This document shows, in pieces, positions 13,820-60,436 of a DNA stretch of 64,000 nt. Under the pieces are notes generated by a model. That model was not told the DNA's origin, made no database searches, and was given only the letters and a program-made list of their open reading frames with translations. Source of the DNA: Vanrija pseudolonga (Eukaryota; Basidiomycota; Tremellomycetes; Trichosporonales; Trichosporonaceae); NCBI RefSeq assembly GCF_020906515.1, contig NC_085855.1, positions 1,550,001 to 1,614,000 on the forward strand, in the 5' to 3' direction. Within the stretch, counting starts at the first letter, position 1, and every line of letters begins with the position of its first letter. Position numbers and translations under genes: made by a program.

Positions 13820-15365
13820 CTACTCAAAGTCGACGACCCTGGTGATCGCCACCATGTCGTCCCGGCCCTCCAGATCAAACCAACTACAGCGGACACGATG
13901 GTTCCGACAGGACAAGCAGCGCATCCACTCGAGGTCCAGGTGACCGTCCGCGATAGGCACTTTGGCAACTACACAGTCGTCTCCCTGGTCGTTGCAATGC
14001 GTACACGGTACGCGCACGCGGTACATGAACCGCGGGACCTCGATACTGTTCGCTGTGGGACGCTTCCCGTGGAGCAGCGCGACAATGCTCGCCGTGATAA
14101 CCTCCACGCGGTCGAGAACCGCCACCGCCCGCGGGGGCACGAGGAGCTGTGCCATACCCGTCCCCAATTCAAAACTGTAGCCCATCTGCGAGGGGTCTGG
14201 CGCCACGACGTACCCCACCTCGTCGTGCTGCAGCGCCCTGTCGAACCGGTTGCCGAGGCACCGGAAGTCAAACACAAAGTCGTCGTCGTCTTCATCGTTG
14301 GTTGGGGCCGTTTGGGCGGGTGAACCCGGCTCGTCGTCGTCGCCGGGCTCCACTGGCTCGGACTTGACCTGGACGTCGTCGTTGGCCAGCTCGTCTTCTT
14401 CCGCCTCGAGGGGCACGTACACGACCTGCTCGTCGACGAGTTCGTCGTCCTCGTCGTCGCCCAATTGGTTCTCCTCCACCTCCTTCTTCTCCGGCTCTCC
14501 TCCTTCGTTGTCATCCGCCCCCACATCCGGCGGCGGTCCACCCGAGTCGTCACCCTGCCCCGAGGACCCCTCTGCAGCCGACCCATCGTCGCTGTCGGGC
14601 ACATTGCCGCTCGTCGAAGCATGGTGATCCTGCGAGGTGCCCGCTTCCTCCTCGTTGTCCTGGGCGTCCTGGCCCTCTTGAACGCCGTCGGCCTCCTCGC
14701 CGTCCGTGTCGTCTTCGTCTTCCACCTCAGGTCCGATCCACGCATCAGGACAGTCTGGCACAATCTTGTCGATCCAGTCCTTCCGAGTCGACTCGAACGC
14801 CTTGAGCTCAAGTCGAGCAACGCGTCGCTCCTTGGCACGCGACTTCTCGCTCTTCTTCAACAAGTCGTCCACGATCTTCTCGGCCACTTGGTCCTTGGCG
14901 CTCCTGGTGAATCTACACGTCGAGCGTTTTGATTTGGATGAGGTGTCGCAGCCAGTGCAATACTGATGCCCCTCGACGACGCAAGGAAGTGCCTCATCGC
15001 GGCAAGAGACGCACTTGGCCGTCTCGGGAACGACCATGACATTCTCCTTCATAAGGGAGAGGAGCTGCGATTGGGTTTAGTGAAGCGCCATGGGACTGAC
15101 TTACCAGTCGCGCCACGAGCAGCTGATTTTTGAGCTTGAACTGCGATACGAAGAAATCGCCTCCAACTCGCTGCAGCCCAACCTCGTCAACATAGGCATG
15201 AAGCTTGGGCCGAGCTGGAGTAAGTGCCGACGGAGCAGAGCTGGCTCCGGCTGCTTGAGAGGCGTCGTGTGCGTTAGTGGTTGGGACCGATGGCGCCGGC
15301 TGTGCAGGCGGCGCAGGTTGCGCTGATCGGGCCTTCTTCCCCTTGGCCTTCTTCGCGCCCGCCAT
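13820..15365 (-). CDS. Cysteine-module protein A (both modules, acidic linker)
   Basis: Unrecognised family; two exons (15365-15104, 15063-13820) give 501 residues. A Lys/Ala/Pro-rich N-terminus (MAGAKKAKGKKARSAQ) is followed by a helix ending LLVARL, where a phase-0 intron sits. The N-module follows: CVSC, then LPCVV, then CTGC and a final Cys (C-x2-C-x6-C-x7-C-x2-C-x10-C). The centre is very acidic, with runs of Asp/Glu and Ser. Then comes the signature VPRFMYRVRVPC and the C-module (C-x2-C-x6-C-x18-C-x2-C-x6-C-SW). No signal peptide or membrane segment. The modules match Zn2Cys6 spacing but between Cys2 and Cys3 carry RDEALP and NDQGDD rather than basic residues, so DNA binding of the usual kind is unlikely. 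Zinc binding is inferred. Confidence 0.75.
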
Positions 15366-16426
15366 TGTGGTGGCTGGACTAGGTGGAGCTGGGCGAGTTG
15401 TGTGAGGTATGAAACAGGTGTAGGTAGGCGAATCCAGACGCTTTATGTATCCCCACGACGAGGGGGCGAGGCCCTCCGGGGGCGAAGTGACAAGGGCCGG
15501 CGTGGTGCGGACCCCGACGTTAGAAATGTGTTTCAATGATCCGGGGGCAATGGACAGGAGGAGGCGGGGGACCGGCGACGATCAGACTGGTTGGTGCCTA
15601 CCGACGGTCGCGTGTGGTGCGCAGCAACTCATGGCTTCATGGTAGCTCAAACGTGTTTGGTGCACTCACCCCCAGGCCGGGGCAAGGACAATACAGCCGT
15701 GCCGGGGATCTGTGTGGCGATCAGAAGGTACAAAGCGAATGACTCCGGTGCCACGCCATCCAGGGAGGGGCGGTGGATCCTCAGAGTTGATGTGTGCATT
15801 GTTGGCATGGCTTGTGCGCCGTGCGTGGCGTGTGCCGGCCACCCAGCGCCGTGTGTACATTCTACACGCGGCGGTGTCACGAAGCTCGCAAACCCGTGGC
15901 GGATGATCCTCGGCGATGTGCCGTGCCGCCGGTGGTTGAGCGTGGAGTGAGAGATGTAGAGGGGGAAGAAAGTCGAGCGACGTGCGAGGTATGCCTTCTT
16001 ATAAGTAGGTCGCGACAGCAGCATCGCGCGGCTCGATGCTTCGCCGGCCTTGCGCCAGTGCCCCCCGCTGCCCCCCGCTGAACTCTTGGCGTTCCATCCA
16101 GCGAGAGACCCCTCCCAAAGCGTTTGACCCATGCCCGAACAGTGAAAGTTGTGGTGGTGGTGACTGCCACTCAGGTCTGGATGGCCATCCCGCGCCATTG
16201 GATGGGGTGGAGACACCCAAAGGTTTGGCACATTCCCCTGCCAAGAGACGTTCCCACACACCCGAGGTTGGGAACTGTAGCCAAGTCGACGCGACCGCCA
16301 ACCGACAACGGCGCTAGTCTTATTCCTGTAGGTATGCATATGTAGAGTCCTTCTTGTTACATCATTTCTCATGTTCAGTTCAGGAGAAAGGCTATCTCCC
16401 CGGCCCGTCGGTCCCGTCCGCCGCGA
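15366..16426. other. Gap between Cys-module gene A and the carboxylesterase
   Basis: No gene supported. It contains the promoter of gene A (a TTTATGTAT stretch lies near 15442) and the 3' flank of the esterase. Confidence 0.5.
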
Positions 16427-18238
16427 TTAGATGCGGAAGACTTGGCGGTTCTTCTCGAGTGAGTCGGCCGACGCCTGGCGGAAGTCGTCCTTGATGGTGC
16501 CGAAGAATCCGGCGAAGAACTGGATGAGGACCGGGTTGGCTGGGTTCCAGCGAGGCCAGACTTCGCGGACCTTGGAGTTGCCGTTGGTGCCGCCCGAGGC
16601 GTTGTTGGGGTCGAGGTTGTACACAAAGTTTGCAAAGTAGTTGCGGATGTTCTTAGAGGCGTAGTTGGGGAGGATGCCAAACCAGACCTGGACAATGTCC
16701 GAGGCGTGGAACGTGCCGACGACGGGGATGCCAAAGTCGTAGGACGCAAGGTACGACCAGCTTGGGGTGTTGGGCTTGACCGCGCTGGCGGTCTTGAGGT
16801 GGACGCGGCGGGTGATGGTGAAGACCATGTCGCCGAGGATGGCAGCGATACGCTTGTAGCCGAAGTAGACCTCGTTGAAGATCCAGGTCCTGAAGGGTGA
16901 GCCGGCCGTGAGGTCGTTGGGGTACGTGTTGACGTGGCCGCGGATCTGGTCAGGGGTGGCCTGGTCGAAGTAGAGGCTGCTCAGGTAGCCGACGATGCCC
17001 TCGGTCGAGCCAGAGATGGAAGCCTGCTGAAGGGAGAAGATGGTGCCCTCGTCCTCCTGGTCGCCGATGATGAAGGGGATATCGGCATACTTGCCGGCAT
17101 AGAGGAGGTCGTCGGTGGATGCCGTGAGCCACTTGCCATCGGGGCGGGGCAGGTAGGCCAGGGCAACCGAGTTGAAGCCGAGCGACGTGGGGAGCGAGTT
17201 GAAAGTGTCGTAGAGCTTCTGGTAGGGAAGCGCGCGGAGGCAGGCGAACGTGTCAGGGGTGCCGGCGCATCCGCCGCGCGAAACGACCGTGTCGTAGACG
17301 TCCTGAGCCTTCTTCGAGGTCGAGCTCTGGGCGGGGACGATGGAGCCCGAGCTCATGATGCCGCCGCGGAAGAGAGCCTTGCCCTTGTAGATGTTGTTGC
17401 CGTCCAGCAGGGAGGCCTGGTGCCAGACCGAGATGGAACCAGCCGACTCGCCCCAGAGGGTGACCTTGTCCGGGTCGCCGCCAAACGCACCAATGTTGTC
17501 GGCGACCCACTCGAGAGCGGCGCGCTGGTCCTGCAGACCGAGGTTGGTAGCACCGGCAGCAGTGGCCTCCTTGCCGTGAAGGAAGCCCCATCCACCAACA
17601 CGGTAGTTGATGACGACGAGGATGTAGGGCTTTCCGTTTGTTGTCGCCTCGCTGACCAGGGATCCGCCGTCGTACATTGAGTTCCAGCCAAAGGTGAACG
17701 AGCCGCCGTAGATCCAGAAGAGGACCGGCAGCTTCGAATTGGGGTTGGTGCCCTTGGGACGGTAGATGGCGAGGTTGAGGCAGTCCTCCTTCTGGTTGAG
17801 GGCAACCTTGAGGAAGGGGGTGTTGGTGAGAGCGTTGACGATCATGCCGAAGAAGTCACCTCCGGGCTTGGTGGTGCCGATGAACTGGGGGCATGACGCC
17901 GCGTAGACGGTGGCGTCAAAGTTGTTGAACGGCGTCGTGTACTTGACTGGTGGGGCGAGACGGGGGGCCTGCGCGAATGGGATGCCGGTGAACGCTTCGA
18001 TGTCGGGGCGGGAGGCGCCGTTGAACGTGCCGGCCGGCGCGGCGACAGTCACGCCCGGGAAGATGCCGCGCGCAGCCATCTCCTGGTACTGGACGTGCGG
18101 GAGCTCGTTGAACCGCTTGGTGATGTTGGCGACGTGCGCCTCGAGCTCAGCCAGGTCGGGCTCGGGGCCGGGGTTGGGGGTGGGGGCGGCGAGCGCCGAG
18201 GCCGCAAGGCCTAGGAGGAGGGAGGCGATGTACACCAT
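16427..18238 (-). CDS. Secreted type-B carboxylesterase/lipase
   Basis: Single-exon gene of 603 residues in the alpha/beta-hydrolase carboxylesterase B family, like Geotrichum/Candida rugosa lipases. It hydrolyses ester bonds of lipids or other carboxylic esters outside the cell. An N-terminal signal peptide is clear (MVYIASLLLGLAASALAAP). The nucleophile is Ser265 in the elbow GESAGS, the acid is Glu397 in EDEGT and the histidine is His511 in GTFHASDIV, all in the expected order. The oxyanion motif IYGGSF lies near residue 176. Cys116 in AASCPQF and Cys153 in EDCLNL are placed like the conserved first disulphide of the family. It is the only long intronless enzyme gene here, and sits between the two arms of the mirrored cluster. 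Confidence 0.92.
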   Translation of the reverse strand: MVYIASLLLGLAASALAAPTPNPGPEPDLAELEAHVANITKRFNELPHVQYQEMAARGIFPGVTVAAPAGTFNGASRPDIEAFTGIPFAQAPRLAPPVKYTTPFNNFDATVYAASCPQFIGTTKPGGDFFGMIVNALTNTPFLKVALNQKEDCLNLAIYRPKGTNPNSKLPVLFWIYGGSFTFGWNSMYDGGSLVSEATTNGKPYILVVINYRVGGWGFLHGKEATAAGATNLGLQDQRAALEWVADNIGAFGGDPDKVTLWGESAGSISVWHQASLLDGNNIYKGKALFRGGIMSSGSIVPAQSSTSKKAQDVYDTVVSRGGCAGTPDTFACLRALPYQKLYDTFNSLPTSLGFNSVALAYLPRPDGKWLTASTDDLLYAGKYADIPFIIGDQEDEGTIFSLQQASISGSTEGIVGYLSSLYFDQATPDQIRGHVNTYPNDLTAGSPFRTWIFNEVYFGYKRIAAILGDMVFTITRRVHLKTASAVKPNTPSWSYLASYDFGIPVVGTFHASDIVQVWFGILPNYASKNIRNYFANFVYNLDPNNASGGTNGNSKVREVWPRWNPANPVLIQFFAGFFGTIKDDFRQASADSLEKNRQVFRI

Positions 18239-30130: not shown

Positions 30131-30823
30131 GGTGAGCTTGGGGTTGGGCGGGACTCTGCCCCCTCAACACCTCGACCACTCGTCTTCATATAGGCTGTGG
30201 ATCGTCGTCTGCTCGTCGTTTGACGTATCGTCTGCAGCAGTCACTGCAACGCCACATCTGGCTGTCGGTCGGTCTCACCCGCTGCCCTGCGCTGCCTGCT
30301 GCGCGCCATATCTCGGGTTAACCAAACCAAACCACTCGCGCAGGTCAGCTGGCCCGTCGCCATGGATACACGGGTGTACCGCCGCAGGCCCCAGTTCCCA
30401 GGAATAGATCTCGCGTATCGGTGGGGATGTGGATAGTGGGCACCACGACGATGTCTTGACGATTTCTAGACGACGGACAGACGACAACGCGACAAGATGG
30501 ATCCAGTGTCCACGTGACTGATCTTTCGGCAACAAGTCGGCAATGAAGCCGAACGACTTGTTGTCGTCTGACCAAGCCGTCTCACAGTTTATGCCCCGCT
30601 TGTACGTCGCGTCGCCGCCGTGTGTTGCCGCGTCGGCGTCGCGTGCGGCCCGCGTGCCGTCTGATTACGAGCACGGCATGCCGGGTACACGGGGCATGCG
30701 GGGCCCTCCATTATCGTCTGTGGCGGCCGTCTTGGCATGTTGTGGCATAAAAGGCGGCGGGCTGGTATCGGCATAGGCACACACTCGCCCACGCATAAGT
30801 CCAAGTCCAAGTCCACAACCACA
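30131..30823. promoter_or_regulatory. Divergent promoter between MFS carrier 2 and amidase 2
   Basis: No gene. Contains a palindrome-like CGGGTTAACC (30314-30323) and a TCGTCGTTTGACG stretch near 30214. A clear copy of the 17-base element from the other divergent promoter is not seen. Confidence 0.45.
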
Positions 30824-32599
30824 ATGTCTCCAGTCCAAGTCCCCCGTCCGTACGCCGAGGCCGAGGCCGACGCCCGCGCCGCGCGCGACGCGACCATCCC
30901 CGCGGCGTACGCGCTCCCGAAGTCGAGCTACCCCCTCCCCAAGAACGTGACTGGCGTGCTCGCTAGCTGCGGGGTGTTGTCCCCCGCCGAGCTCGCCATC
31001 GTCGAGCTCGACGCAACTGCCCTTGCTGGCCACATCGCCGCGCGCAAGTACACCGCTGTCGAGGTCACCACCGCGTACGTCAAGGCCGCGGCTGTCGCAC
31101 AGCAGGTGACCAACTGCGTCGTCGAGCTCTTCGAGGACGAGGCGCTCGAGCGGGCGGCGTGGCTCGACGCCGAACTCGCGCGTACCGGGCGCCCTGTTGG
31201 CGAGCTGCACGGCGTGCCGGTTAGCATCAAGGACCATATCTGCGTCAAGGGCCACGACACGCCCAGCGGCTTCATTGGCTTGGTCGGGAAAATGGTCGCG
31301 GAGGAGGACGCGCACCTCGTCAAGATCCTACGTGATGCCGGGGCCGTCTTCTTCGTCAGTGAGTAGGGTAGCGTTGGGGTTTTACCCGTGCTGACACCGC
31401 GCCGAAACTACCAACCCCCAGAGCCTGATGGCCATCGAGACAGACTCGTACCTCGGCGTGACGACCTCGCCCTGGAACACAGACACGACGTGCGGCGGCT
31501 CGTCGGGCGGCGAAGGCGCCATTCTGGCATGCAAGGCGAGCGCGCTGGGCGTCGGGTCCGACATTGGCGGGAGTGTGCGTGCGCCGGCCGCCTCGACTGG
31601 CATTTACTCCTTCAAGCCGGGCGTGCACCGCCTCCCGCACGTGGGCATGGTCATCCCGATCGGCCCGCAAGGCTACGACGGTATCCACGGCACGCAGGGC
31701 CCGATGGCGCGCAGCATGCGCGACCTCGAGCTGTATATGCGGCTTATGGCCGCGGCTGAGCCGTGGCTCGCCGAGCCGAGCGTCGACTACAGGCCGTGGC
31801 GGGAGGTAGTCGCGCCGAAGAGGCTGCGTATCGGCGTGCTTGAAGACGACGGGGTCATCCGGCCCGTCGCGCCGGTGCGCCGCGCCCTCCTGCACGCTGT
31901 CGAGCGGCTCAAGGCTGCCGGCCACGAGATTGTGCCGTATACCCAGTACGAGTACGCCGAGCACTGGGACATTGTGGTGGGTGTGCGTGCCGCGCCGAGT
32001 TGACCCGCCAGCGTAAGCTCTACTTCATCGACAATGGGGACAGCGTGCACGCTCAGCTCGCGAGAGGCAACGAGCCTATCAAGCCGCTCACGAAGTGGGC
32101 CATGCGAGCGGTGGGCACCGCGCCGATCTCGTCGATCGATTATTTCAAGGCATGTTCCTGTGTCGACACACGCTGACCCCACCTCAGCTGGCCGGCCGGC
32201 GCGATACCTTCCGTTACAAGCTCGCGCAGTACTGGCGCGCGCAGGGCATCGACGTGCTGCTCTCGCCGGCAATGCCAGGCCCCGCCTCGCTCCACGGTAA
32301 CGGGAAGGACTGGGGCGTGAGTGACCTGTTCTCGACCCCGCTGACGCCAGTACACATGTTACTGGAACCTGGCCGACTACCCCGCCGGCGTGTTCCCCAC
32401 CGGGCTGCACGTCGACCCCACGCTGGACGCGGAGGGGGGCTACACCCCGCGTAACGACGACGAGGCGCACGTATATAACACGTATGATGCCGCTAAGCAG
32501 CGCGACGCGCCGATCGCCCTCCAGGTTGTCGGGTATGCTGGGCATGAGGAGGAGACGCTTGCGGCCATGAAGGCCATCGCGGAGGTCGTGCAGGTGTAG
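30824..32599 (+). CDS. Acetamidase-type amidase 2, with two unusual introns
   Basis: Amidase signature enzyme; the triad is Lys136 (PVSIKDH), Ser204 (GGSSGGEGAI) and Ser228 (SDIGGSVR). The exon model 30824-31354, 31422-31976, 32012-32149, 32188-32316, 32351-32599 gives 533 residues. The intron homologous to amidase 1 intron 1 has lost its acceptor: amidase 1 reads GCAG|AAAC where this gene reads GCCG|AAAC (31401-31407). A consistent reading frame needs a shifted donor (GTCAGT at 31355) and acceptor (CAG ending 31421), removing the conserved KTTNPQ segment. Otherwise the gene is damaged at this point. Intron 3 begins with GC (AAG|GCATGT at 32150). Catalytic residues and the C-terminal half are well preserved. 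Most similar to amidase 1; divergent from MFS carrier 2. Confidence 0.8.
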
Positions 32600-39224: not shown

Positions 39225-40139
39225 ATGGATACTAAAGACGTGGAGAATGGCGCTCGTCTCAATCCCCATCAGCACGCACTTCAATCATCCCGCAGAATGA
39301 CGACCCCAACCCACCCAACGCCCCAGTCACCTGGCTCTCCGAACCAATACGACGACGTCCACATGGCGGAGGCCGAGTCCGATTCCGAGTCCTCGACCGA
39401 AAACTTGCTCGTCGTCAACGATCGCGACTCGAGCGGCTCGACCGATGCCTCCATGGAGACAGCCACCAGTGGCAAGACGGACGCTTCGATGGGGACAGCC
39501 ACCAGCGGCGGAACAGTTGCTTCGTCGGTGACAGTAACTAGCGGCAGCTCGACAGACGCTTCCTTCGTGACAGCCAACAGCGGCTCATTGGTCACCGACC
39601 CGGCCACGACAGTCGTGGCGGCGGACGCTACTGTGACGAAGCTACCCCAGCCCGCCACACAGGCGCCGCGAGCACCACGGACGCGCACCATGATTGAGCT
39701 CGGGGACTCGTCGCAGCCCGATAAGCCATGGTACCTCGTCGACTTGGACCCCAACCGCCAAGTCACCTTCGGCAACCGGCAGCCTCTCACGGCGACTCTC
39801 GTCCCACCCCATGCCGCAGCCCTCCTCGAGCGCATCACCGTCCTCCGCCCTTCCGTCCTCGATCAGGTTGGCGCACTGCAGCAGATGAACGGCGGTCAGG
39901 CGAGCCCCATCAAACTGCCGCCGTATCTTTACTGCGCGCGGCAGGCATGTGTTTGCTGCAACGACGCCGGACGCGAGTGTATCCTCCAGAACGTTGTTGT
40001 TCTCGACACCAAGCAGCTCGCCCACCACGACATGAAATGCGTGGGCTGCCAGCTAACTTGCCAGCCCGTGTGCAAGTGGGAGGAGAATGCTCGCTTCCCC
40101 GGCCGTTTGATGGTGTTTGAGTTCCCTGGTGGTCAGTAG
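39225..40139 (+). CDS. Cysteine-module protein B (C-module only)
   Basis: Single exon, 304 residues, member of the unrecognised cysteine-module family. The N-terminal half is disordered and carries four degenerate 12-13-residue Ser/Thr repeats (DASMETATSGKT, DASMGTATSGGT and two looser ones). Then come the family blocks PWYLVDLDPN, LVPPHAAALLERITVL and the signature LPPYLYCARQAC leading into the C-module (C-x2-C-x6-C-x19-C-x2-C-x7-C-KW), with an additional Cys inside the last loop. There is no N-module. No signal peptide or membrane segment. Probably a zinc-binding intracellular protein; the role is unknown. An ATG at 39297 is an alternative start. Confidence 0.7.
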   Translation: MDTKDVENGARLNPHQHALQSSRRMTTPTHPTPQSPGSPNQYDDVHMAEAESDSESSTENLLVVNDRDSSGSTDASMETATSGKTDASMGTATSGGTVASSVTVTSGSSTDASFVTANSGSLVTDPATTVVAADATVTKLPQPATQAPRAPRTRTMIELGDSSQPDKPWYLVDLDPNRQVTFGNRQPLTATLVPPHAAALLERITVLRPSVLDQVGALQQMNGGQASPIKLPPYLYCARQACVCCNDAGRECILQNVVVLDTKQLAHHDMKCVGCQLTCQPVCKWEENARFPGRLMVFEFPGGQ

Positions 40140-42737: not shown

Positions 42738-43618
42738 ATGCCACTCAAGAAAAGGTCGCCACCCGCCCCAACCACTCCCAAGACGATGTCAACCGACAGC
42801 AACTCTCTCACCGGTCCTTCCTCGGATAAAGAAGAATCATTGGAAACCTCTCCGGCAGACACGTCTCCGGAGGGAGGTCTAGCAAATGCCACAGCACCCA
42901 AAGCCTTCAAGCGTCCACGCGGATCAGGTATGAGCATGTTTGTCGCCTGGGACACACTGTCTCTCGAGCAGCGCGACTACGTAAAGAAATTCAAGATAGA
43001 ATACCAGCCACGCATCAGCCGTGTGGTAAGTCCCAGAGCTACAAGAGGCTCCCCTAACCGCAGGTGCTTGGCCTCGCCAGCGACAGTACTCTAGTCGTGC
43101 GCACAGATGACCGCTGCAAGGAGTGCAGCGTCAGTACGACCGACGTACCGTGTCTGGTGCGTACGTCGCCAGTCGAGGGCGGCCAATTGTTCAAGTGCGT
43201 TGGGTGCACAAATGACGAGGACAACATTAAGTGCACCTTCATGGAGTTTGAACAGCACGAGTGGGAGTACTTTATCGAGGACTTGCAGGACATGTCCCAG
43301 GCAGAAAAGGATAGGAGCCGTGCCACTGCCCAGCAAATGCTTGAGGACTCTCGGCGTTGGCTGGAAAAGGGGAACAGGCCCCGGTGCAAAGCGAGGAACA
43401 ACAAAAAGAAAGCCAAAACGAAGGGGACCAGCGCACCGCCGACCCAACCACCTCCTGGACTGATTGAACGCGAAATTACACATGACTCCAGTTACCAGGT
43501 CAACCCATCCCTCACTCCCACGACGGTCAAGTACTGGGTTGCAAGGGCTGATCCTGCGAGCTCATTGGGTAAGGGAGGGGGCTCAGGTCATGATCACCCG
43601 TCAGGCAGCGGTACTTGA
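42738..43618 (+). CDS. Cysteine-module protein C (N-module only)
   Basis: Two exons (42738-43025, 43064-43618), 280 residues. A Lys/Pro/Ser/Thr-rich disordered start is followed by a helix (LSLEQRDYVKKFKIEYQPRISRV) at whose end a phase-0 intron falls, exactly as in proteins A, D and F. The N-module follows: VRTDDRCKEC, VPCLV, CVGC (C-x2-C-x8-C-x14-C-x2-C-x8-C). Then come a charged helix and a basic stretch near residues 198-215 (KARNNKKKAKTKG), possibly a nuclear localisation signal. The C-module is missing. The remainder is disordered. Unrecognised function; first gene of a same-strand run with D and E. Confidence 0.65.
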
Positions 43619-44038: not shown

Positions 44039-45413
44039 ATGGGCGGCAGCATGGACGCCTACGTCCCGTACCATCTCCTCTCCGAGGCTGACGCAAGCTT
44101 CGTGAAGGAGTATCAACAAAGCCAGCGCCCACGCATAGGCTACATTGTAAGCTCCCACCAACCACAGCAGCTGACACCAGGTCGTGGCGCTGCGCAAAGC
44201 ACCCGACCATCCAGTGGTCGTAATGCCGGCAGATGACCGGTGCGAGCTGTGCGCAAGTGATCTCGACTTGCCGTGCGTTGTCGACCTGAGCGATGTCCTG
44301 GAAACCGACAAGCCGACCAAGAGCGTGAAGTGCGCGGCGTGCTCCTCGAATGCGGTGTCCAAGTGCCGCGTCGTGTCCCACATGACGCGGGAGGAGCTGC
44401 TTGCCCTCGCCGCAGCGGATAACAGTGCCGATATCGAGGCCGCTTGGGAGAAGATGCGTGACGCCAAGACGAGGCTTGGGATCGGGCAGTTCTACGAGTG
44501 GACCAGGGGCTTAAAGGGCAGAGCCGCGGCTGTCGGGGCAACGAGCAAGGGCAGCCCCGCTCCCCCTGTCCACTCTTCTGATGCGAGCCCAGGCGGCGAG
44601 TTAGCGTATCAGCCGGGAGGAAACGCGGCCAAGGGCTGGGCCACCAAGCCGCCGGAGTCGGGCCCCTCCAATCATGGGCGTTGTAACCCCTACGATGGCT
44701 CCAACGACTATGGCGAGCTTGACGACAAGGAAGACCCCGACCACGAAGACCGCAAGGTTCACTACGACGCGGACGACGAGGACGACTACAGCCCACCAAC
44801 TGCCTTGGCGCAGGCCGACCACCAAGGCTTCTCTGGACCTGTGACCGAAGAGCGCGCCCAAAGCCAGATCCTTCCCCTGACGCAGGTCGCCATCCTCTCC
44901 CTCGGCGAATCGTGCGACGACCCATGGTACCTCGTCGAGACAGCCGCGTCCATTGCACCAGGCTACCAGCTCTCCTTCGCACCGCACCGCGACGACCGTT
45001 TCCTACGCCCGCCGTACACGGTACCGATGTTCGAGCGTTCGACCTTCATCTCTGCCCAACTACTAGACCTGATGGCCAGCGCCCAGCGCGTGCCGAGGGG
45101 AGGAAGGCTCACGCTCCCCCACTACCTGTACCGTGCGCGCCTGCCGTGCTCGCCTTGCCATGCGCTCGACCCGGACACGGAGTGTTACATCCACGATCTG
45201 GTTATGGACCCCGGTAAGGAAGGGGAGGATAGACCCAGGTGTCTCCAGTGCATTGCTGGCGGGAAGCAGTGCGGTTGGGACAGGGTGTGGTGCAACGATG
45301 GGAAGAACGGCGCGGACACGCCGCCGCCTGATCCCATGGGCGTGGTGGTTGTGATGCGCTGGGACGACCGGTCGAATGTCGTGGACAAGAACGTTGGGAG
45401 GAGGATTCTGTAG
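44039..45413 (+). CDS. Cysteine-module protein D (both modules)
   Basis: Two exons (44039-44146, 44181-45413), 446 residues; with A, one of two full-length family members. A short N-terminal helix (FVKEYQQSQRPRIGYI) ends at the conserved phase-0 intron. The N-module reads PADDRCELC, LPCVV, CAAC (C-x2-C-x7-C-x18-C-x2-C-x7-C). A Glu/Asp/Gly-rich linker follows, then PWYLVETAAS, PPYTVPMFERSTF, the signature LPHYLYRARLPC and the C-module (C-x2-C-x8-C-x18-C-x2-C-x6-C-GW). The tail contains a short hydrophobic strand (MGVVVVMRWDD) also hinted at in A and B. No DNA-contact basic motif. Intracellular zinc protein is the best guess; function unknown. Confidence 0.75.
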
Positions 45414-45673: not shown

Positions 45674-46723
45674 ATGCCGCAACCGGTGGCGCATGGGCGA
45701 AAGTGGCAGATCGTCAAGACCGCGGACATTCTCGTCGCACCGGCGCCATCTGCCCCGCTGCAACCCATCAACATGGCAGTACAAAAACCGTCCCACAACA
45801 TCCTTCACAACCCACACACACCAACATGCGCGGTCGACTACCCGAGTCCCATGGGCGCGGGTACCACACCCCCCGAGCGTTCAACCACGACGACGTCGCC
45901 GACCTCGACCCAGCCCACCGCGCCTCCACGTCCCGCCGGAACCCCCTCCCGCCCCTGCCTGACCCCACAGGCGGCCTCACGCGCGGAGAGCACGCGTCCG
46001 CGCGCGAGCAATACCTCGACTCCCTCGGCCCGCTGGACTCGCGCCTGCCGCCCCTCGCGCCCGCGCCCACACATCCCCACGCCGCTGCCGAGCTTCAGTA
46101 GCGTGTTGGAACGTGCCGGCCTCGGACCGGACCGACGAGGAGAACCGGCGCGTAAGCGCGCGCGGCCTCCCTCCGAGGATATGGGCGGACCACTCGACGC
46201 CGTCACGACGTATGCCCCGCCGCATGCGCGCCGGCCGACGGTGATACGTAAGTTCACCACCGGCGGCGGGTGGGACCAGCCGCGGTACCTTTTCGAAGAC
46301 GCGACTGGCCGCCAGCCGCCGTACGCGCCGTTCTTGCACACGACCGTAAGCGACGCCGGGACGCTGCGGCCTCCACGCACGTCGCACCTGTTTGAGAGGG
46401 TTCAGAGCATCCCCTCTGACGTGCTCGTCCTGCTTGCCGAGTCGCAGCACCTCAAAAACCACGAGACGCAGGTCATGCTCCCGCCGTATCTCTACCGCTT
46501 GCGCGTGCCCTGCGATCAGTGCCGCGTCTTCGGCAAGGACGACTGCTTCTTCCACGACGTGCCGACGCAGCAAGGGCGTGTGGTGCGCGTCGGTGGGCAG
46601 TGCTTGCAGTGTATGGCGAGTGGACGGGAGTGTAGCCTGCCTGATGTACTGTGTGATAATGGGCAGGGCGAGTGCCAGCAACGTCCGAGCCCGTACGATG
46701 CGGTCACCGTGAGGCAAACGTGA
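45674..46723 (+). CDS. Cysteine-module protein E (C-module only; 5' end uncertain)
   Basis: Single-frame model of about 349 residues. The conserved part begins near 46249: WDQPRYLFEDATG, PPRTSHLFERVQS, the signature LPPYLYRLRVPC and the C-module (C-x2-C-x7-C-x18-C-x2-C-x6-C). Upstream, a second reading frame from an ATG at 45826 (MRGRLPESHGRGYHTP, running to 46101) has better codon character than the frame used here. The true first part may therefore lie in that frame and join by an intron I could not place, or the gene may have shifted frame. A basic stretch GEPARKRARPP could be a nuclear signal. Same strand as C and D, convergent with amidase 3. Confidence 0.55.
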   Translation: MPQPVAHGRKWQIVKTADILVAPAPSAPLQPINMAVQKPSHNILHNPHTPTCAVDYPSPMGAGTTPPERSTTTTSPTSTQPTAPPRPAGTPSRPCLTPQAASRAESTRPRASNTSTPSARWTRACRPSRPRPHIPTPLPSFSSVLERAGLGPDRRGEPARKRARPPSEDMGGPLDAVTTYAPPHARRPTVIRKFTTGGGWDQPRYLFEDATGRQPPYAPFLHTTVSDAGTLRPPRTSHLFERVQSIPSDVLVLLAESQHLKNHETQVMLPPYLYRLRVPCDQCRVFGKDDCFFHDVPTQQGRVVRVGGQCLQCMASGRECSLPDVLCDNGQGECQQRPSPYDAVTVRQT

Positions 46724-46809
46724 GCCTGGCCCAGATTAAGCTGTTAGTATTGTGAGAATGCAAGGCTTGGTTGCCAACCTCGCCATGTTCAAACTGCTTG
46801 CATGTATTC

Positions 46810-48592
46810 TTACTTCTGAACCACGTCCACGATCGTTCCCATGGCCGACAACGTCTCCTCCTCGAGACCGAGGAACCCAATGACCTGGAGACAGATTGGC
46901 GCGTCGACCGACACCTCGGCGTCATAGTTGTCGTACACGAACGTTTCGGAGTCATTTCGGGGTGCGTACGACCCGTCCTCGGCGTCGAGGGCGGGGTCGA
47001 CGGACAAGCCAGTGGGGAACACGCCAGCAGGGTAATTCGTCAAGTTCCAGTACGACGTGTACTGCCATCAGCAATGCCGTATTCGGCGCACTCACGTTCC
47101 AGTACTTTGCTGTGCCGTGCTCCGGCGCCGGCGTGGGCCCAACGGGCGAGAGCACGACGTCGACCCCCGCCTGGTGCCAGTACACGCCGAAGTCGTACCG
47201 GAAGTAGTCGCGCTGCGCGGCCAGCGCAGTGAGCTCGGCCCACGTGCGTTCCTTGTTGCCTGCCTGCGAGATGATCCACTCGGTGAGGGGGCGCATCGGC
47301 TCGCCAGAGTTGGCGAGGTGCCGGCGCACCATGGCGCCATTCTCGGGCCAGTAGAGCTTGCTCTGGGATATGTCAGCGGGTGTCACGTCGCGGCACTGGT
47401 CACCCACAATGAGGCTCCAGTTCTCGGCCGACTTGAACGGCGTGAACTCGACCACGTCGTGCCCGGCCGCCTTGAGCTTGGCCACCGCGACGTCGAGTGC
47501 GCGTCGCACGGGAGCGACGGGACGCACGACTCCGTCGTCGTACAGAACACCGATGCGCAGCTTGGCTTTGCGCTCGACCTCGCGCCAGGGCTTGACTTCG
47601 ACGCTGGGGGTGTTAGAGTTGTGCCGTACGGTTGGCGCCCGCCAACTCACCCAGGCTCGCGGAGCCACGGCTGCGCCGCGGCAAAGACGCGCATGTACAG
47701 CTCCATGTCGCGCACGCTGCGACCCATGGGCGCGTGCGTGCCCAGGATGCCCTCGTAGCCCTTCGGGCCGATGGGATACACCATGCCCATGTTGGGCAGG
47801 CGGCCGACGCTGGGCTTGAACGAGTAGATCCCGCAGTTGGCTGCTGGCTGGCGCGGGTCAGCTTCGACCACCACCACGACATACCGAGCGCACACTGCCG
47901 CCGATATCCGCGCCGACGCCGAGCGGGCTGGCCCTAAACCCGATAATCGCGCCCTCGCCGCCGCTGCTCCCGCCCGACGAGAGCGCCGTGTTGAACGGGC
48001 AGCTCGTGAGGCCGAGGTAGCTGTCCGTCTCGAGGTGCATCAGGCTCTGGGGGTTGGTCGTCTTGCAGTAGAACACTGCGCCGGCGTCGCGCAGGATACG
48101 GACGAGGTGCGCGTCCTCCTCGGCGACCATCTTGCCGACAAAGCTGAGGAAGCCGGAGGGCGAGTCGTGCCCCTTGACGTCGATATGGTCCTTGATGCTG
48201 ACGGGCACGCCGTGGAACGCGCCGTGGTTGCGCCCCGCAGCGAGCTCAGCGTCGAGGAAGGCCGCGCGCTCGAGTGCCTCAGCCGCGAACAGCTCCACGA
48301 GGCAGTTGGTCGCCTGCTGCGCGAGCGCCGCGGCCTTGATGTACGCGGCGGTGGCCTGCACCGAGGTGACCGTGCCGCTGGCAATCTGGCCCGCGAGCCC
48401 CGTCGCGTCGAGGTTGACGATCGCGAGCTCGCCCGCTGAGAGCAGCCCGGACGACTCGAGGATGCCGCTCGGGTTCTTGGGCAGTTTGAACGACTTGGGC
48501 AGAAGATACTCTGGCGGAATGGTCGCGTCGCGCGCGGCGATGGCGGAGGCGATCGCCTCGGAGGCAGGGCGGGGAACTTGGACTGGCGACAT
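46810..48592 (-). CDS. Acetamidase-type amidase 3
   Basis: Amidase signature enzyme, 539 residues from five exons (48592-47885, 47847-47651, 47603-47408, 47362-47096, 47061-46810). The triad is Lys134 (PVSIKDH), Ser209 (GGSSGGEGAI) and Ser233 (ADIGGSVR). It has no intron at KTTNPQ, unlike amidases 1 and 2, and differs from them at TVTSVQATAAYIKAAA, so it is the outlier of the three. The C-terminal half (PVGPTPAPEHGTAKYWN, YPAGVFPTGL) is well kept. Cytosolic; releases ammonia from an amide. Exact GGCTAACGGG about 370 bp upstream. It sits apart from the mirrored cluster among cysteine-module genes. Confidence 0.9.
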
Positions 48593-49640: not shown

Positions 49641-50371
49641 ATGACGCCCGTCAGGCTCCCCTACGATGCCGAGGACGGACCCAGCCCGGTGAAGAAGCGG
49701 CGCATCGACCCGGCAAGTCCCAACCCTCCAGCCAGTCCCAACCCTCCAGCGAAGCCGAAGCCTCGTACCCCCGTCCGCAAGCCTAAGCCCAGTACCCCCA
49801 AGACGCCGAGGACGCAGGAGCCTGCTCAGACCCCCGCGCCGCCGTCGGCCGTTGACACGCACGGCTCAAACACTTCCGCCGCCTGGACGCGGCGCCACCA
49901 GAATCGCTCGCTCTCCCTGCTGTACCGCCTCGTGAGTGTTCGCATGTCCAAACTAACCAACGCCACGCGCAGCATCTAGCCACCGCCTTGGACAACCATT
50001 GGGCCGTCGTCGACCCGCCCGCCCTCGGCTGCGTCCGCTGCAAACACCACCTCAGGCTCCCGTGTGTCATCCATATCCGCCAGTTTGACGGCCAGGAGGC
50101 CACATGCGTCGCGTGTGACGAAGAAAACGCCTACTGCTCGATCGCGGCGAGCCCTGCCAGGGACCAGAACACGCTCGAGCACGAACTCCGCCGTGTACCT
50201 GCGAGCGTGTACGAGCGTATCCGTGCGCGTGCGTCCGACGCCATTGATGCGGCGGCCATCCAGTGGTGCTTCGACGAAGGGGTGTTCATCCCGCCCCGGT
50301 TTCCTTGGATGCATATCCACAGTAGGCTCGGCGCTGCTTTGGGTGCCGTCACTTCTGAACCAGGAAACTGA
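49641..50371 (+). CDS. Cysteine-module protein F (N-module only)
   Basis: Two exons (49641-49931, 49973-50371), 229 residues. The N-terminus is a Pro/Lys/Ser-rich disordered tail with duplicated SPNPPA units and a basic patch (VKKRRID). A helix ending SLLYRL meets the conserved phase-0 intron, then the N-module: CVRC, LPCVI, CVAC (C-x2-C-x7-C-x13-C-x2-C-x6-C). A helical region follows to the end; no C-module. The next gene downstream on the same strand, 341 bp away, is a C-module-only member. Together they carry the two halves of proteins A and D. Confidence 0.68.
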
Positions 50372-50712
50372 GCATTAGTGGCAGCTTGAGGTCGTCCACC
50401 TCATCGCTTGGCAAGTCATTGCGATATTGTATAGTCATTGTCTCCATGGATATGCAGGTCATCATCCTCTCTGCCCCGTGACGTCCGTGACTTGCCTTCT
50501 CTCCTCGGTGAGAGCATATGTGTGCGAGAACCTAACCATGGCACCTCGACCAGCCCTTGTTCCCCAGGCATTCACCCCCTTCACCTCCTCGCAACCAATG
50601 TTGCAGATCAGTGTCTTGCTGTGCACCCTCGCCCTCGATCCGACATGCAGCACATCAAGCAAGCACATAAATACACAGGCCCGTCAGAAACCTCCCTCAC
50701 TCACCATCCGCA
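50372..50712. other. Gap between Cys-module genes F and G
   Basis: 341 bp with no coding sign. It ends in a CA/CT-rich leader before the ATG of G (ACCATCCGCAATG), so G appears to have its own promoter. Confidence 0.45.
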
Positions 50713-51381
50713 ATGAACCACCACGACCCTCCCGACACCACGCCATGGCTGCGGCGCCGTAACCCCTCGCCGTCAGCAACCAGACCCTCTCCACCCGGCA
50801 CGCTGAGCCCCGTTCCCAACCCACCGCCAGCCCACTTACCCCTCCGACCACACCCCCCACCGCCACCCGACGCGCACCAGCACGGCTGGGGTCCTCGCGC
50901 GCCCATCCCGCCTCGCCAGCAGCAGCCGATCCCGGAGTACACGCTCTCCGCGCACGCGGACGTCACGGCCTTCCTCCTCGGCATGCCGGGGACCGATGCG
51001 CCATGGTACTTGGTCCAGGCGAGCCGCTACACGCCCAAGGTGCGCTGGAGCACAGCCGACGTGCCACACAGCGTACCGCTGCTGCTTGACCGGGTGACGT
51101 TCGTCACTGCCGAGGTGGTCGAGCTCTTCGCGTGCATCCACGCCCTCCGGCCCGAGCAGTCCGTCGTCACCCTCCCGCCGTATCTGTACCGCTCGCGCTC
51201 CCCGTGCCACGCCTGCGGCGTTACCGGGCGCACTTGCTATGTCCGTTATGCCGCCGGAAGGTTCTCCTGTGTCTGGTGTGAGGGATGCGGGGTGGGGTGT
51301 GACCCCGTACTCTGGGCCGGCTGGGGGCAGTGGGTGCCCGTGGTGTGGACGTGGGCATGCAGGGCATGCTTCGAATTGTGA
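50713..51381 (+). CDS. Cysteine-module protein G (C-module only)
   Basis: Single exon, 222 residues. The first 75 residues are Pro/His-rich and disordered. Then PWYLVQASRY, SVPLLLDRVTF, the signature LPPYLYRSRSPC and a compact C-module (C-x2-C-x6-C-x10-C-x2-C-x6-C, with an extra Cys in the last loop). A Trp-rich tail (WAGWGQWVPVVWTW) and two further Cys close the protein. The middle loop is the shortest of the C-modules. Unknown function; pairs by position with gene F. Confidence 0.68.
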   Translation: MNHHDPPDTTPWLRRRNPSPSATRPSPPGTLSPVPNPPPAHLPLRPHPPPPPDAHQHGWGPRAPIPPRQQQPIPEYTLSAHADVTAFLLGMPGTDAPWYLVQASRYTPKVRWSTADVPHSVPLLLDRVTFVTAEVVELFACIHALRPEQSVVTLPPYLYRSRSPCHACGVTGRTCYVRYAAGRFSCVWCEGCGVGCDPVLWAGWGQWVPVVWTWACRACFEL

Positions 51382-52212: not shown

Positions 52213-54135
52213 ATGTCCGCAGCCGTGCGCCCCGACAGCGTGAGCGCGAACAACCCCGTCACGAGTACGAGCGTGCGCGCGACGCTCGCGCCGCTCGGGC
52301 TGGCGCTGGATCTGTCCGAGGAGGAGGACTACACCGGCTTCCTCGCCGGCGGGTGGGAGGAGTGGAACAAGGTGCTCGCGATGGACGACTATGTACCGCT
52401 CGTCGACGAGGCGCGGTTCCCCCGCACCGACGTGCACCGCCCCAGCGCGGAGGACAACCCGCACAATGCATGGGCTTGGAAGGCGCGCATCGAGGACACC
52501 GAAGCCCGCGGCGGGCTCTTGAAGGGCAAGACGGTCGCGCTCAAGGTGAGTAGGGGCAGGCTGCACATCGCCGATTTGGGGCGGCGCCGTTTGGGGTGCT
52601 GGTGTCGCCGACACGCTCGACCGGAGCGGTTAGCCCATGACAGCAGCAGCTCCGAGACGCCGCAGGTCCGACCGAGCCCGCTGCTGTGCGCGACGACGAC
52701 CTAAACCTAACTCTCTGCGCAGGACAACATCGGCGTCAAGGGCGTCCCGTGTCTCCTAGGGACGGACTACATCCAGGACTGGGTGCCCGGCGTCGACGCG
52801 ACGGTCGTGACGCGTATCCTCGAGGCGGGGGGCACTGTGCTCGGCAAGGCGGTGTGCGAGAACCTGAGTTTGTGGGGCACTTCTGGCTCGTCGGCCACCG
52901 GGCCCATGGACAACGTGTATGCGGCCGGCTACTCGGCGGGTGGTAGCAGCTCCGGCACGGCGGTGCTCGTTGCTCGCGGGGTAGTCGACCTCGGCGTGGG
53001 CGGGGACCAGGGCGGCTCGATCCGAATGCCGGCCGCGAAGAACGGCATCGTCGGCCTCAAGCCCACGTGGGGGCTCGTGCCGTACACCGGCGTCGCGAGC
53101 CTCGAGGCCACGCTCGACAACGCCGGGCCCATGACGAGGGTGCGTGCTGCAGCAGCAGCAGAACAAGCTGACTCTCCCCAGACGGTACTGGACAACGCGC
53201 TGCTTCTCCAGGTGATCGCGGGCGCCGATGGCATTGATGACAGGCAGCAGGCGGGCTGTCCGTTCCCGGCCGACGTGCCCGACTACCCAGCCATCGCGCG
53301 CACCGGCATCAAGGGCCTGCGCGTCGGGCTCCTGGTAGAGGGGTTCAACCACCCCGGAGGGCATGACCCGCGCGTGAGTGCGCTCGTGAAGCGCGCGGCG
53401 GAGCAGCTGCTCTCCCTGGGCGCAGCGAGCGTCGCCGACGTCTCGGTGCCAATGCACCTCGACGCCAACATCCTCTGGGGCACGATCGGCAGGCTGGGGG
53501 GTGCATCCGCGCTCAGGGGACACAATGGCGGCCGGCGCGGCCTCGCGCTCAACGACCTCGCCGACAAGATGGCGCCCGTGCGCCAGGAAGCGTTTGGGCA
53601 CCTCTTCCCGTCGACGAAGAACTCGTTCATCAACGCCCTGTGGGCGGGCGAGCACATGCCCGCCAGCTTGGTTGGCAAGGCGACCAACCTTGTGCGCAAG
53701 CTCAAGGACGAGTACGTCGCCGCGCTGGGCGATGTCGACGTGCTGCTCATGCCGACGATTCCGTTCCTCCCCAAGCCTATGGTCGTCGCGACTTCGACGC
53801 CGGCGCAGCTCATGGCCAACGCGTCGGGCTACACGCGCAACACGAGTGCCTTTGTGAGTTAGGTGGGCTTGGACGCGAACTCGGCCGCCCGCGCGCCGGT
53901 GACACACACCTTGGAAGGAAACGAGGCGAGGCCACCCACTGACTGATGCCCGTCACAGAACCTCACGGGCCTCCCGGCACTCACGATTCCCGTCGGCTTT
54001 GTGCCGTCCGACGACGACGCGCGCATCTCCCTGCCTGTGGGGATGCAGATCGTGGGCAAGCCGTACGATGAAGCGCTGCTCTATCGCGTCGGGTATGCGT
54101 GGGAGCAGGCGTTTGACTGGAAGTCGTTTACATGA
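52213..54135 (+). CDS. Amidase 4, nitrile-pathway type (bacterial-like subfamily)
   Basis: Amidase signature enzyme of a different branch from amidases 1-3. Four exons (52213-52545, 52723-53139, 53182-53853, 53959-54135), 532 residues. The triad is Lys111 (VALKDN), Ser186 (AGGSSSGTAVLV) and Ser210 (GGDQGGSIR), with the 75/24 spacing of Rhodococcus nitrile-pathway amidase. The GGDQGGSIRMPA and KPTWGLVPYTG blocks are typical of that branch, which hydrolyses aliphatic and aromatic amides. No signal peptide; cytosolic. Introns 1 and 4 are longer (177 and 105 bp) than in the other amidases. Its presence suggests broad amide use; physically outside the mirrored cluster. Confidence 0.88.
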
Positions 54136-57100: not shown

Positions 57101-57609
57101 CCCACTCCCGTTTACGACACCGGGGACCGTGGGCGCACTGCGGTACTTGGGCATCCCAGCACCGTGCAAAGCATGCATGCAGCAGCTACCTCGCACCTGC
57201 CCAAACCAGTACCGCAGAGGCACGCGGCCAGAGTGTGGTGCGGCGCGGTTTAGTGTTTCATGCTACGCAATGCCAAGAACTAGCGGTCCAATGTGGCACA
57301 GGCGGTGCCGACTGGTTCGGGTTGTCCGCGTCGTTACCACTGTACGGGGGGGCAACTTTGACAAGACGAGTCTGGCTGATCAGACCCGTCTCTGAAAGAT
57401 ATAAGAAGGGCTCGTCTGGTCGTCTTTTCCTCCTCATCAGCTCGACAGGTTTCTACTCAGTGAGCCTCCTCTCCTCCTCCTCTTCAGCCCTCGGCAGCCT
57501 CGACTAGCCTCGACTAAAGGCTTGGACACTCGTCCTCGCCTTAGTCGACTGGTCACTGCCACTCCCCTCCTCCCCCTTCACCCAAGCCCACCACTAACCC
57601 TCCCCAGCA
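54136..57609. other. 3.5-kb gene-free stretch
   Basis: The longest interval without a supportable gene. Open frames exist but have Arg/Pro/Ser-rich, shadow-like composition and no family match. Short-word repeats stand out: GCATGCATGC (54238), GAGCGAGCGAGC (54560), GTCGGTCGG (54590), a GCCGGCCTTCC repeat (54700-54725) and scattered GCATGCATG words. Near the right end a TATAAG and a pyrimidine-rich leader belong to the next gene. It could be intergenic DNA, a long noncoding RNA or the decayed remains of genes. Confidence 0.5.
57400..57405 (+). promoter_or_regulatory. TATA box of the secreted Cys-rich gene
   Basis: TATAAG within AAAGATATAAGAAGGG, 205 bp upstream of the ATG at 57610, followed by a CT-rich stretch typical of strongly expressed fungal promoters. 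Confidence 0.4.
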
Positions 57610-58203
57610 ATGCTTTTCACCAAGCTCTTCATCGCCGCCACCTCGCTCCTGGCCTTCTCGGTCTCGGCCGCCCCCGCCTCGGGCCCCCTCTTCTCGCAGG
57701 ACAACGCCGAGCTCGCCCAGTGGCTCCAGCTCTCCAAGGACGGCAAGGCCGTCATCGCCAAGGACGGCTCCGGCTGGGCCGACGGCCAGGGCTGGCACCC
57801 GGGACCCTACGCCGAGGCCAACGACGTCCCCTACATCCCCTCGTCGAACGGCTCCATCGCCATCAACGTCATCCAGCAGCGTGACGAGTGGTCCGACGTC
57901 GAGGCCCGCGACGCCCTCGTTGCCGCCGACACCACTGCCGTCGAGGCTCGTGACGGTGAGGAGAAGCGCTTCTTCCTCCTTTCTCTCCTGGCTATCAAGG
58001 TTTCGTTCTGGCACGACCTCCTCTGGTGCGGCAAGACCCGCGTCTACCGCTTCTCCAACTGTGGTTGCCAGGCCGGCCCCGTTCTTCAGTACCACTGGCA
58101 CGTTCGTTACCACCCGTCTCGCGGACGCGGCATCTGCGACTGGCGCGGCTGCTGGTTCCGCGCTGGTTACCAGGTCTGCCCCTACGGCGGCTGCGGCTGG
58201 TAA
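57610..58203 (+). CDS. Secreted cysteine-rich precursor with Kex2-type site
   Basis: Single exon, 197 residues, unrecognised. A signal peptide (MLFTKLFIAATSLLAFSVSA) is followed by an acidic pro-region with two VEARD repeats and a dibasic Lys-Arg (DGEEKR) at about residue 120. Downstream is a mature part of about 77 residues with eight Cys, many Trp and Tyr, and a C-terminal CPYGGCGW. The layout is that of a prohormone or small secreted effector: signal, pro-peptide, Kex2 cleavage, compact disulphide-rich product. A hydrophobic segment (FFLLSLLAIKVSF) directly follows the cleavage site, so membrane association is possible. The TATA box and pyrimidine leader suggest strong expression. Confidence 0.7.
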   Translation: MLFTKLFIAATSLLAFSVSAAPASGPLFSQDNAELAQWLQLSKDGKAVIAKDGSGWADGQGWHPGPYAEANDVPYIPSSNGSIAINVIQQRDEWSDVEARDALVAADTTAVEARDGEEKRFFLLSLLAIKVSFWHDLLWCGKTRVYRFSNCGCQAGPVLQYHWHVRYHPSRGRGICDWRGCWFRAGYQVCPYGGCGW

Positions 58204-59272
58204 GCGATTGAGATCATCTCTCGCTCGCCACTTGCCCGTGCTCCCCCTTGGCGGTCTCACTCAGAGCCGCCTCTGAATAGTCTGCAGTACTGTTCATCAC
58301 GGACTATGGTCTCTTAGGAACATTTCTTCATACAGTTCATCTTCCGTACGGACAATGCAATCATTGCGTACAACAATGGTGGTGGTGCTGTGGTGGTGCT
58401 GGTGCTGGGTGCAAGTTGTGAGGCGGACGGGGCTTGGAGAAACTGAACACAACATCGATCGGAGCATGGTGCCGGATCTCGGTGAGCTCGCCTCGGCGCA
58501 CCGTCCTTGCCGACGATCAACACGGCTGTCGTCGCCAACGATCCTGGTGTTTCCATCTGTGTCGCCCTAGTATGTCTGACCACTGCGCGTCGTCGTCTCC
58601 TAGCAGCTACCCGCGACGCGTCTCTCCCGCAACTAGCGAGCAGTAGCAGCAACACAAAACGGCCACTAAAAAAATCTGAAGGGCGGTGAATAACCGCCAG
58701 CGGCCAAAAGTGGGAAGTTGAAAAAAAATCAAAAGCAGCCGCCTCGCGATGCCGCTAAAAAGTTCGTAATGTCACGCTGCGACACGTCCATCAGTAGAGA
58801 CAGCTGACGGACAATAGCTCGGACCGCAGCTATTCTTGCGCAGCATGCATGCGTCGGAATCCTATGCAAGGCGGCCGGCTGTCTTCGCCGGTCGCCGCCT
58901 TCGGAGACAGACAGCGACGACGCGGCTCAAGACACCACCCCCGAAACCCTCCTCGGCGAGCGCCAAGCCGCGCCACCACTCCCGCCGCGGGAATGCGCCA
59001 GCGGCCAGCCCGGCCTGGAACTGAACGCATACCCCGTGGAGAGTGGGGGTGGCTTTGGCTTAGCCGGGGAAGTCGATGGCGCTAAGAAGTGATACATGCA
59101 GGCGAGTAGGCTGTTGGAATCCGGCCGCGACGCGTGCCCTTCTCCAGCGTGTATGAGGGTCACTGGGTGTTGTTGGGGCATCTCTCTCCCCCAGGACTCT
59201 TCCACTTCTGCATACACGGACACTGCACTCTGTGCACATTCTAACTACTCAACTCAGAGGACACCAGTCCAC
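58204..59272. other. Convergent gap between the secreted gene and Cys-module gene H
   Basis: No gene. It has A-tracts (58664-58730) and a small hairpin GGCGGT-GAATA-ACCGCC (58682-58698). Confidence 0.45.
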
Positions 59273-60436
59273 TCACAGCAAGATAAAGCAGCTCGGGTGG
59301 ATCAAGGGTGGACATACCAGCTGGGCCAGTTCACCTCGTACACCGTCCGCACGGCTTTCCCCCGGCACCCTAGGCTCGTACCAGCCACACGACTCTCCAT
59401 TAGCACGGCACTCAACGCAGCACAGGCTGCTCTTGAGGATATGCCGCCGAGCCCCGTCGAGGCGCACGTCGGTGAGGTAGCAGTCGTGTCCCTTTGCTCG
59501 GCAGCCGCGGCAGGCCTCGTGTGCGCGGTAGACGAACACGCCTTGCGCGGCACAGAGACACGCTTCCGACCGGCTACCGTGCGTCATCTCCCACTGCACA
59601 AGGCGGTGGATGTAGGGGGGCATCAACTGTGGCAATTCCATCAGGTGGGAGGTGAGCGGCGGGCGGAGGATGTTGAGGCAGCTAGGCCATTTGCCGCATA
59701 TCGGCAGAGAAGGGGGGATGGGCCGGAGGGGGAGATCGCGGAAGGCGAGGACGGTGGGGAGGTCGGGATGGGGAGGGGTCTGGGGGTTGTTGTTGTTTGG
59801 AGGGGAGGGGTTGCCGTTGTTTGGAGAGGTGGAGTCGTTGTCGTTTGGAGGGGTGGGGTTGTTCGCGTTTGGAGGGACTGGGTTGTTGCCGCTTGGAGCG
59901 GTGGGCTCCGACTGTAGCGGGAGAGGCACATGCCCCGCTTCGGGCGTAGGACACTGCACTCGAAGTTCAAACGTAGGGTTGTCGCTGGTGGACTTGGAGA
60001 CGAGGTCGGATGCTGACCGGCGTCGGAGGGCGGAGGCGAGGTGGTCAAGTCTTGGACAAGGTGGTTCGCGTGCGACCTCCACCGGAGTGGGGTCGCCGTG
60101 GACGCCGAGCGCCCACAGGCGCGGCGGTGCGGAGAGCGGCACTGGCGAGCTGTCGGCCTTCGGGACAGCAGGGTGGTGAAGTGACGACATCGACTTGGAC
60201 TTCGTAAGCTGACGCCGGGCGGGAGGACGCGCCGCCTCTGGCGCGTGAACGGCACGCTGCGGGGTGTGGACTGACGCCGCGGTCGGCTGCAGCTTGCGCT
60301 TGTGAGAGCCGTTTTTCTGGCCTGCCCTCTTCCCCCGCCTAAGCTCCTGTGTGCGGGGAAGAGAGAGAACCTGGTCCCGGATGGTGGTGTCCTGCATGGC
60401 CGGCGGGGTGGGTGGTGGTGAGACGCGGACAGTCAT
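59273..60436 (-). CDS. Cysteine-module protein H (C-module only, Asn/Pro minisatellite)
   Basis: Single-exon model, 387 residues. The N-terminal half is basic and disordered (LRRGKRAGQKNGSHKRKL could be a nuclear signal). The middle has an Asn/Pro-rich repeat (units such as NNPVPPNA, NNPTPPND) from a 24-bp minisatellite. Then comes a divergent family signature (GVFVYRAHEACRGC) and the C-module (C-x2-C-x6-C-x20-C-x2-C-x6-C-GW). No N-module. The last 30 residues are doubtful: a GTATGT lies within the final codons (near 59311-59316), and another frame there gives a VYEVNWPSW end more like other members, so the 3' end may be wrong. Confidence 0.62.
   Translation of the reverse strand: MTVRVSPPPTPPAMQDTTIRDQVLSLPRTQELRRGKRAGQKNGSHKRKLQPTAASVHTPQRAVHAPEAARPPARRQLTKSKSMSSLHHPAVPKADSSPVPLSAPPRLWALGVHGDPTPVEVAREPPCPRLDHLASALRRRSASDLVSKSTSDNPTFELRVQCPTPEAGHVPLPLQSEPTAPSGNNPVPPNANNPTPPNDNDSTSPNNGNPSPPNNNNPQTPPHPDLPTVLAFRDLPLRPIPPSLPICGKWPSCLNILRPPLTSHLMELPQLMPPYIHRLVQWEMTHGSRSEACLCAAQGVFVYRAHEACRGCRAKGHDCYLTDVRLDGARRHILKSSLCCVECRANGESCGWYEPRVPGESRADGVRGELAQLVCPPLIHPSCFILL
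59787..59912. repeat. Coding minisatellite, about five 24-bp units
   Basis: Degenerate units of about 24 bp built around GTTTGGAGGGGTGGGGTT on the plus strand. On the minus strand they encode the 8-residue Asn/Pro repeats of protein H. The unit length is a multiple of three, so copy number can vary without breaking the frame. Confidence 0.65.

Follow-up and report, generated by a model that had tools for sequence, protein, structure and literature searches.

What are the eight cysteine-module genes that crowd into one stretch of the genome of Vanrija pseudolonga, a basidiomycete yeast of the order Trichosporonales, and what might their cysteine clusters do? The stretch, hereafter the window, comprises 64,000 nucleotides of contig 7 (bases 1,550,001–1,614,000 of a 2,436,261-base contig in a genome of 24.9 Mb), and we name its genes by their lowest window coordinate. 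Their products carry an N-terminal cysteine module (N-module), a C-terminal one (C-module) or both. The family that they represent is real, old and lineage-restricted, and we place even weight on reading its members as Zn2Cys6-like cluster proteins whose likeliest role is that of nuclear co-regulators.

All eight genes first described in an earlier note were recovered at or near their reported places. The claim that they share two module types had to be narrowed: both types are real, but each gene carries one or both, with the N-module in four of the eight, the C-module in six and the two together in only two (Table 1). The LPPYLYR lead said to precede the C-module is likewise exact in only two of six cases (45674 and 50713), the other four showing the variants LPPYLYC, LPHYLYR, VPRFMYR and GVFVYR; the C-[SGK]-W ending proposed for most C-modules closes four of six. 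Within the window the pattern C2C(5-8)C(7-25)C2C(5-9)C has 15 matches, nine of them family modules and six Zn2Cys6-type factors; 40 windows simulated with a third-order Markov model contain none. The N-module of 13820, whose last gap is 10, does not match it. BLASTP comparison of the C-domains (44039 against 45674, E = 1.6e-19; 13820 against 39225, E = 5e-12) indicates that they are homologous. Likeness between the N and C profiles extends beyond the cysteines (score 23.7; the highest of 60 shuffles scored 16.9), suggesting that the two clusters probably share one origin. At 49641–51381 a gene with only the N-module and, 341 bases further on, one with only the C-module share a strand, giving the impression of a two-module gene that was split.

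The family frames look coding with weak codon bias, because guanine plus cytosine content at third codon positions (0.66–0.82 in nine family frames) lies between that of ten neighbouring known genes (0.82–0.88) and that of five antisense or spurious frames (0.49–0.65). The preferred reading of all four N-type genes includes a possible short in-frame GT-AG intron of 34–41 nucleotides just upstream of the N-module, with alternative in-frame splice pairs in three of the four over the stretches scanned. The intron of 44039 agrees with a public V. pseudolonga protein, LOC62_07G009498, which is identical to the 44039 product and starts at 44051. By eye, 42738 perhaps retains a truncated start of the C-domain.

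The earlier note could place the modules in no named family. This holds at the level of Pfam thresholds, where the eight whole frames gave nothing above any cut-off; the weak whole-frame matches (E 0.02–0.24) were to unrelated families and were set aside. What had been overlooked is a loosened Zn2Cys6 binuclear-cluster layout in both modules: like members of PF00172 (PDB 1cld, Gal4 1d66, Put3 1zme and Pho7 6e33), they have six cysteines in two C-x2-C-x6-C-like halves. The strict spacing C-x2-C-x6-C-x5-16-C-x2-C-x6-8-C, as given in PMC2447501, fits two of nine C-modules and none of ten N-modules, and the looser C2C(6-8)C(7-25)C2C(4-10)C fits all 19. When cut-out domains were scanned at E up to 10, sub-threshold PF00172 matches appeared in three of six C-domains and one of four N-domains. 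Literature searches listed no paper on the paired-cluster family, and a viral library search gave no match at E 0.001.

In structure prediction the C-module superposes on the solved Zn2Cys6 chain 1cld within 2 Å over 33 residues in two models, and the model of the 45674 C-domain places a β-hairpin in the lengthened Cys3–Cys4 loop. In the full-length 44039 model the N-module shows a similar element order at lower confidence and with an extra helix; it is absent from the structural-search list, and a short helical segment is predicted ahead of its cluster. On these models the modules look like Zn2Cys6 clusters and probably fold like them, and a Zn2Cys6-like fold is likely for the family proteins.

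Several results limit how far this resemblance can be read as kinship. No family module reaches the PF00172 cut-off (21 bits) or appears among the 111 genome matches to PF00172 (147 candidates scored), and single domains bring similar scores from other Pfam families. When the N or C profile was compared with ten local Zn2Cys6-type factors, the scores were no better than those of cysteine-keeping shuffles, so sequence kinship with PF00172 was dropped as a claim. In a PDB sequence search the C-profile found ferredoxins first (E 0.013), and the C-module fold shows a low structural Z, with poorer fits in the other rows of the comparison. Foldseek was weak, its best matches (E 6.2 and 7.3) being to prolidase and Mediator, with Put3 at rank 4 and Gal4 at rank 3. 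Because of the profile null, the missed cut-off and the ferredoxin lead, the modules are not filed under PF00172. The ferredoxin lead and low Z, together with single weak zinc-ribbon Pfam matches for N-domains, would also suit another metal fold (a zinc ribbon, a treble clef or an iron–sulphur ferredoxin-like domain) that resembles Zn2Cys6 by chance, a reading that we consider quite unlikely beside the superposition on 1cld. As a yardstick for the PDB search, a local true factor does no better than E 1.5 against PUT3, a Zn2Cys6 protein of solved structure; the N-profile gave one weak splicing-factor match (E 0.77).

In Zn2Cys6 factors such as Gal4, basic residues between Cys1 and Cys3 contact DNA. 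The mean net charge of this segment is +0.22 in both the N-modules (n = 9) and the C-modules (n = 9), compared with +3.30 in ten nearby factors, although a few single modules reach +2 or +3. Given this near-neutral contact segment, canonical DNA reading has likely been lost in most members, as judged from residue composition. Beyond this, the family departs from Zn2Cys6 proteins in the mostly longer Cys3–Cys4 loop of its C-modules, in its Pfam scores below cut-off and in clusters that are often C-terminal, and paired in some members, without a fungal transcription-factor domain.

The alternative that the proteins are divergent yet working DNA-binding factors, some with a C-terminal cluster and unusual DNA contacts, would account for the cluster-like predicted fold and for the three basic residues kept between Cys1 and Cys3 in the N-module of 49641, the C-module of 59273 and the C-module at C7:1618743. 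It also has precedent, as passages of PMC4832277 place C-terminal clusters in PacX, Ume6p and Czf1p. The near-zero mean charge of the contact segment and the lack of any fungal transcription-factor domain in the eight frames scanned with Pfam make it unlikely. PacX of Aspergillus nidulans is one of the nearest known parallels, with a zinc cluster towards the C-terminus and an action proposed to involve protein contacts. Unlike the family it fits the Zn2Cys6 consensus; PacX also carries a coiled coil, and its homologues are described as lying within Leotiomyceta (PMC4832277).

Evidence on location is mixed. Some members have basic runs that could serve as nuclear signals, for example 45674 and its orthologue, P0009 and, on visual inspection, exon 1 of 49641, and no obvious secretion signal was seen by eye in the family proteins. 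A test for nuclear localization motifs across the family was weak, with basic runs not significant overall, which counts against a nuclear role. We infer zinc content, a nuclear site and a regulatory role for the family proteins.

The family exceeds the eight genes first noted: contig 7 adds five loci to the right of the window, and contig 3 another two. Single-protein genome searches, in which the best candidates were scored, together with reading of the flanks, give at least 13 loci within a 62-kb span of contig 7, two on contig 3 and two weak candidates; a pattern scan found no further members in C7:1530001–1550000 or C7:1634001–1644000. Both clusters of the weak candidate on C4 are of the type CxxCxxxxxPC, a possible ancestor-like form. 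At C7:1619826–1619900 an in-frame stop lies between the halves of an N-module, marking a possible pseudogene, and at C7:1620928 a C-module has phenylalanine in place of its sixth cysteine, pointing to decay or to a change in metal binding. To judge from its reading frames, the family includes decaying members.

Relatives were found only in V. pseudolonga and in contigs of related organisms, in an exact-word search of limited reach (best 7,995–7,996 candidates scored) that leaves absence elsewhere unproven. Among them, P0002 is 60–62% identical to 44039, P0003 73% identical to 45674 and P0010 59% identical to the contig 3 member, compared with about 23–38% between paralogues within V. pseudolonga over BLASTP matches. 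P0003 emerged only from a region search, having been missed by the first alignment search. The contigs of P0002 and P0003 are both 31,715 bases long (that of P0010 is 32,249), and the two genes may be neighbours in the relative's genome too. Each of these three members is closer to its own orthologue than to any paralogue, which on protein identity shows the duplications separating them to be older than the orthologue splits; the dating covers only the three members with an orthologue. The active, lineage-specific expansion proposed earlier therefore loses the word 'active' and keeps its lineage restriction.

Conservation is uneven along these proteins. As had been proposed, the linkers are predicted to be disordered, with a predicted local distance difference test score below 50 for most of residues 146–263 of the 44039 protein, and they evolve fast: in three orthologue pairs linker identity is 33–40%, against 64–78% for C-domains, and the N-domains of the one pair compared are 67% identical. 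C-domain cysteines are kept between orthologues in 7 of 7, 6 of 6 and 11 of 12 cases, the changed one lying, by eye, outside the module's six. On these comparisons the family shows constraint at its modules and does not represent a recent burst.

This history bears on a further alternative, that the clusters are of transposon origin, like the mushroom CxC proteins of KDZ and Copia elements, and were spread by mobile elements. The array is clustered and has decaying members (an in-frame stop in an N-module; a last cysteine changed to phenylalanine), and like the CxC clusters the family is basidiomycete, multicopy and cysteine-rich; a passage of PMC7641404 describes Pleurotus CxC5/CxC6 regions as present in many copies, grouped and frequently close to Copia elements. 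Copies that are old, only about 23–38% identical and in three cases matched by gene-specific orthologues are unlike recent mobile copies, and we regard such an origin as very unlikely. Pfam scans of the eight frames (E up to 1) and the cut-out domains (E up to 10) also revealed no CxC family in a library that presumably holds the CxC models. A KDZ search was uninformative, as it found no match in the genome or in any of 14 controls.

Table 1. Family loci and neighbouring features. Positions are window coordinates, or contig coordinates where prefixed (C7, contig 7; C3, contig 3).
Feature	Position	Strand	Modules	Details
Family gene 1	13820..15365	-	N (begins 15013) and C (begins 14005)	Exon 1 15365-15105, intron 15104-15065, exon 2 15064-13820; second in-frame donor possible at 15116
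Family gene 2	39225..40139	+	C only (39948)	
Family gene 3	42738..43618	+	N (43115), no C	Exon 1 42738-43025, exon 2 43064-43618; second donor possible
Family gene 4	44039..45413	+	N (44241) and C (45147)	Exon 1 44039-44146, exon 2 44181-45413
Family gene 5	45674..46723	+	C (46511)	C-domain modelled
Family gene 6	49641..50371	+	N (50030)	Exon 1 49641-49931, exon 2 49973-50371; other in-frame splice pairs possible
Family gene 7	50713..51381	+	C (51205)	
Family gene 8	59273..60436	-	C (59512)	
Family locus	C7:1615622-1617421		N	
Family locus	C7:1618510-about 1620100		N and C	N halves split by in-frame stop
Family locus	C7:1620707-1623297		N and C	Two overlapping open frames; C without last cysteine
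Family locus	C7:about 1623272-1624519		N	
Family locus	C7:1625299-1626129		C	
Family locus	C3:4117937-4119427		N and C	Public protein LOC62_03G005153
Family locus	C3:4124482-4126503		N	
Weak candidate	C7:1505722		N-like	Genome search E 0.2; BLASTP 2.2e-4 to P0006, 5.8e-4 to contig 3 N-protein
Weak candidate	C4:1167536-1169590		N-like (E 0.043)	C-like cluster after likely intron (by eye)
Zn2Cys6-type frames	6493, 9836, 21011, 23590, 26622, 34831			In window
Zn2Cys6-type frames	C7:1547706, 1632342, 1636298, 1642009			In flanks
Amidase frames	1065-1901, 30737-31366, 47858-48592, 52906-53862			Interleaved with factors and family

The family overlaps a second local array of ten frames that combine the Zn2Cys6 pattern with a basic segment; the window contains six of them and its flanks the other four. 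These show a motif like [RK]HTRxxTGCRxCRxxxVxC with a loop of 12–14 residues, and four of the ten exceed the Pfam cut-off in a genome scan. A Fungal_trans_2 frame at 8063 comes after the first of them (6493), and the stretch also holds a carboxylesterase and a major facilitator superfamily transporter.

We propose a co-regulator role because the DNA-contacting basic residues are mostly missing. Such proteins would be built from one or two clusters, an N-cluster and a C-cluster at the end of a conserved C-domain some 130 residues long, with a disordered linker joining the two. Six cysteines in each cluster would hold two zinc ions, round which the cluster folds; a short helix would follow Cys1 and another Cys4. 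The clusters would be used for protein contacts instead of canonical DNA reading. Diversification may have proceeded through local duplication, after which one module or the other was lost. A fuller and rather doubtful version of this proposal is that a DNA-reading cluster was doubled, stripped of its contact residues and, with a β-hairpin insert and a new C-domain, turned into fast-evolving protein-recognition modules that expanded beside true Zn2Cys6 factors and might partner or antagonise them. Because the two arrays overlap, models in which the family partners or antagonises the factors can be put to the test.

Zinc clusters in fungi are generally regarded as DNA readers, and PF00172 is the common means of finding them. 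The main interest of the family lies in whether such clusters can turn into modules without DNA reading. If the proposed reading is true, Zn2Cys6 clusters have a second possible use as interaction modules, and lineage-restricted cluster sets that fall under the PF00172 cut-off are being missed.
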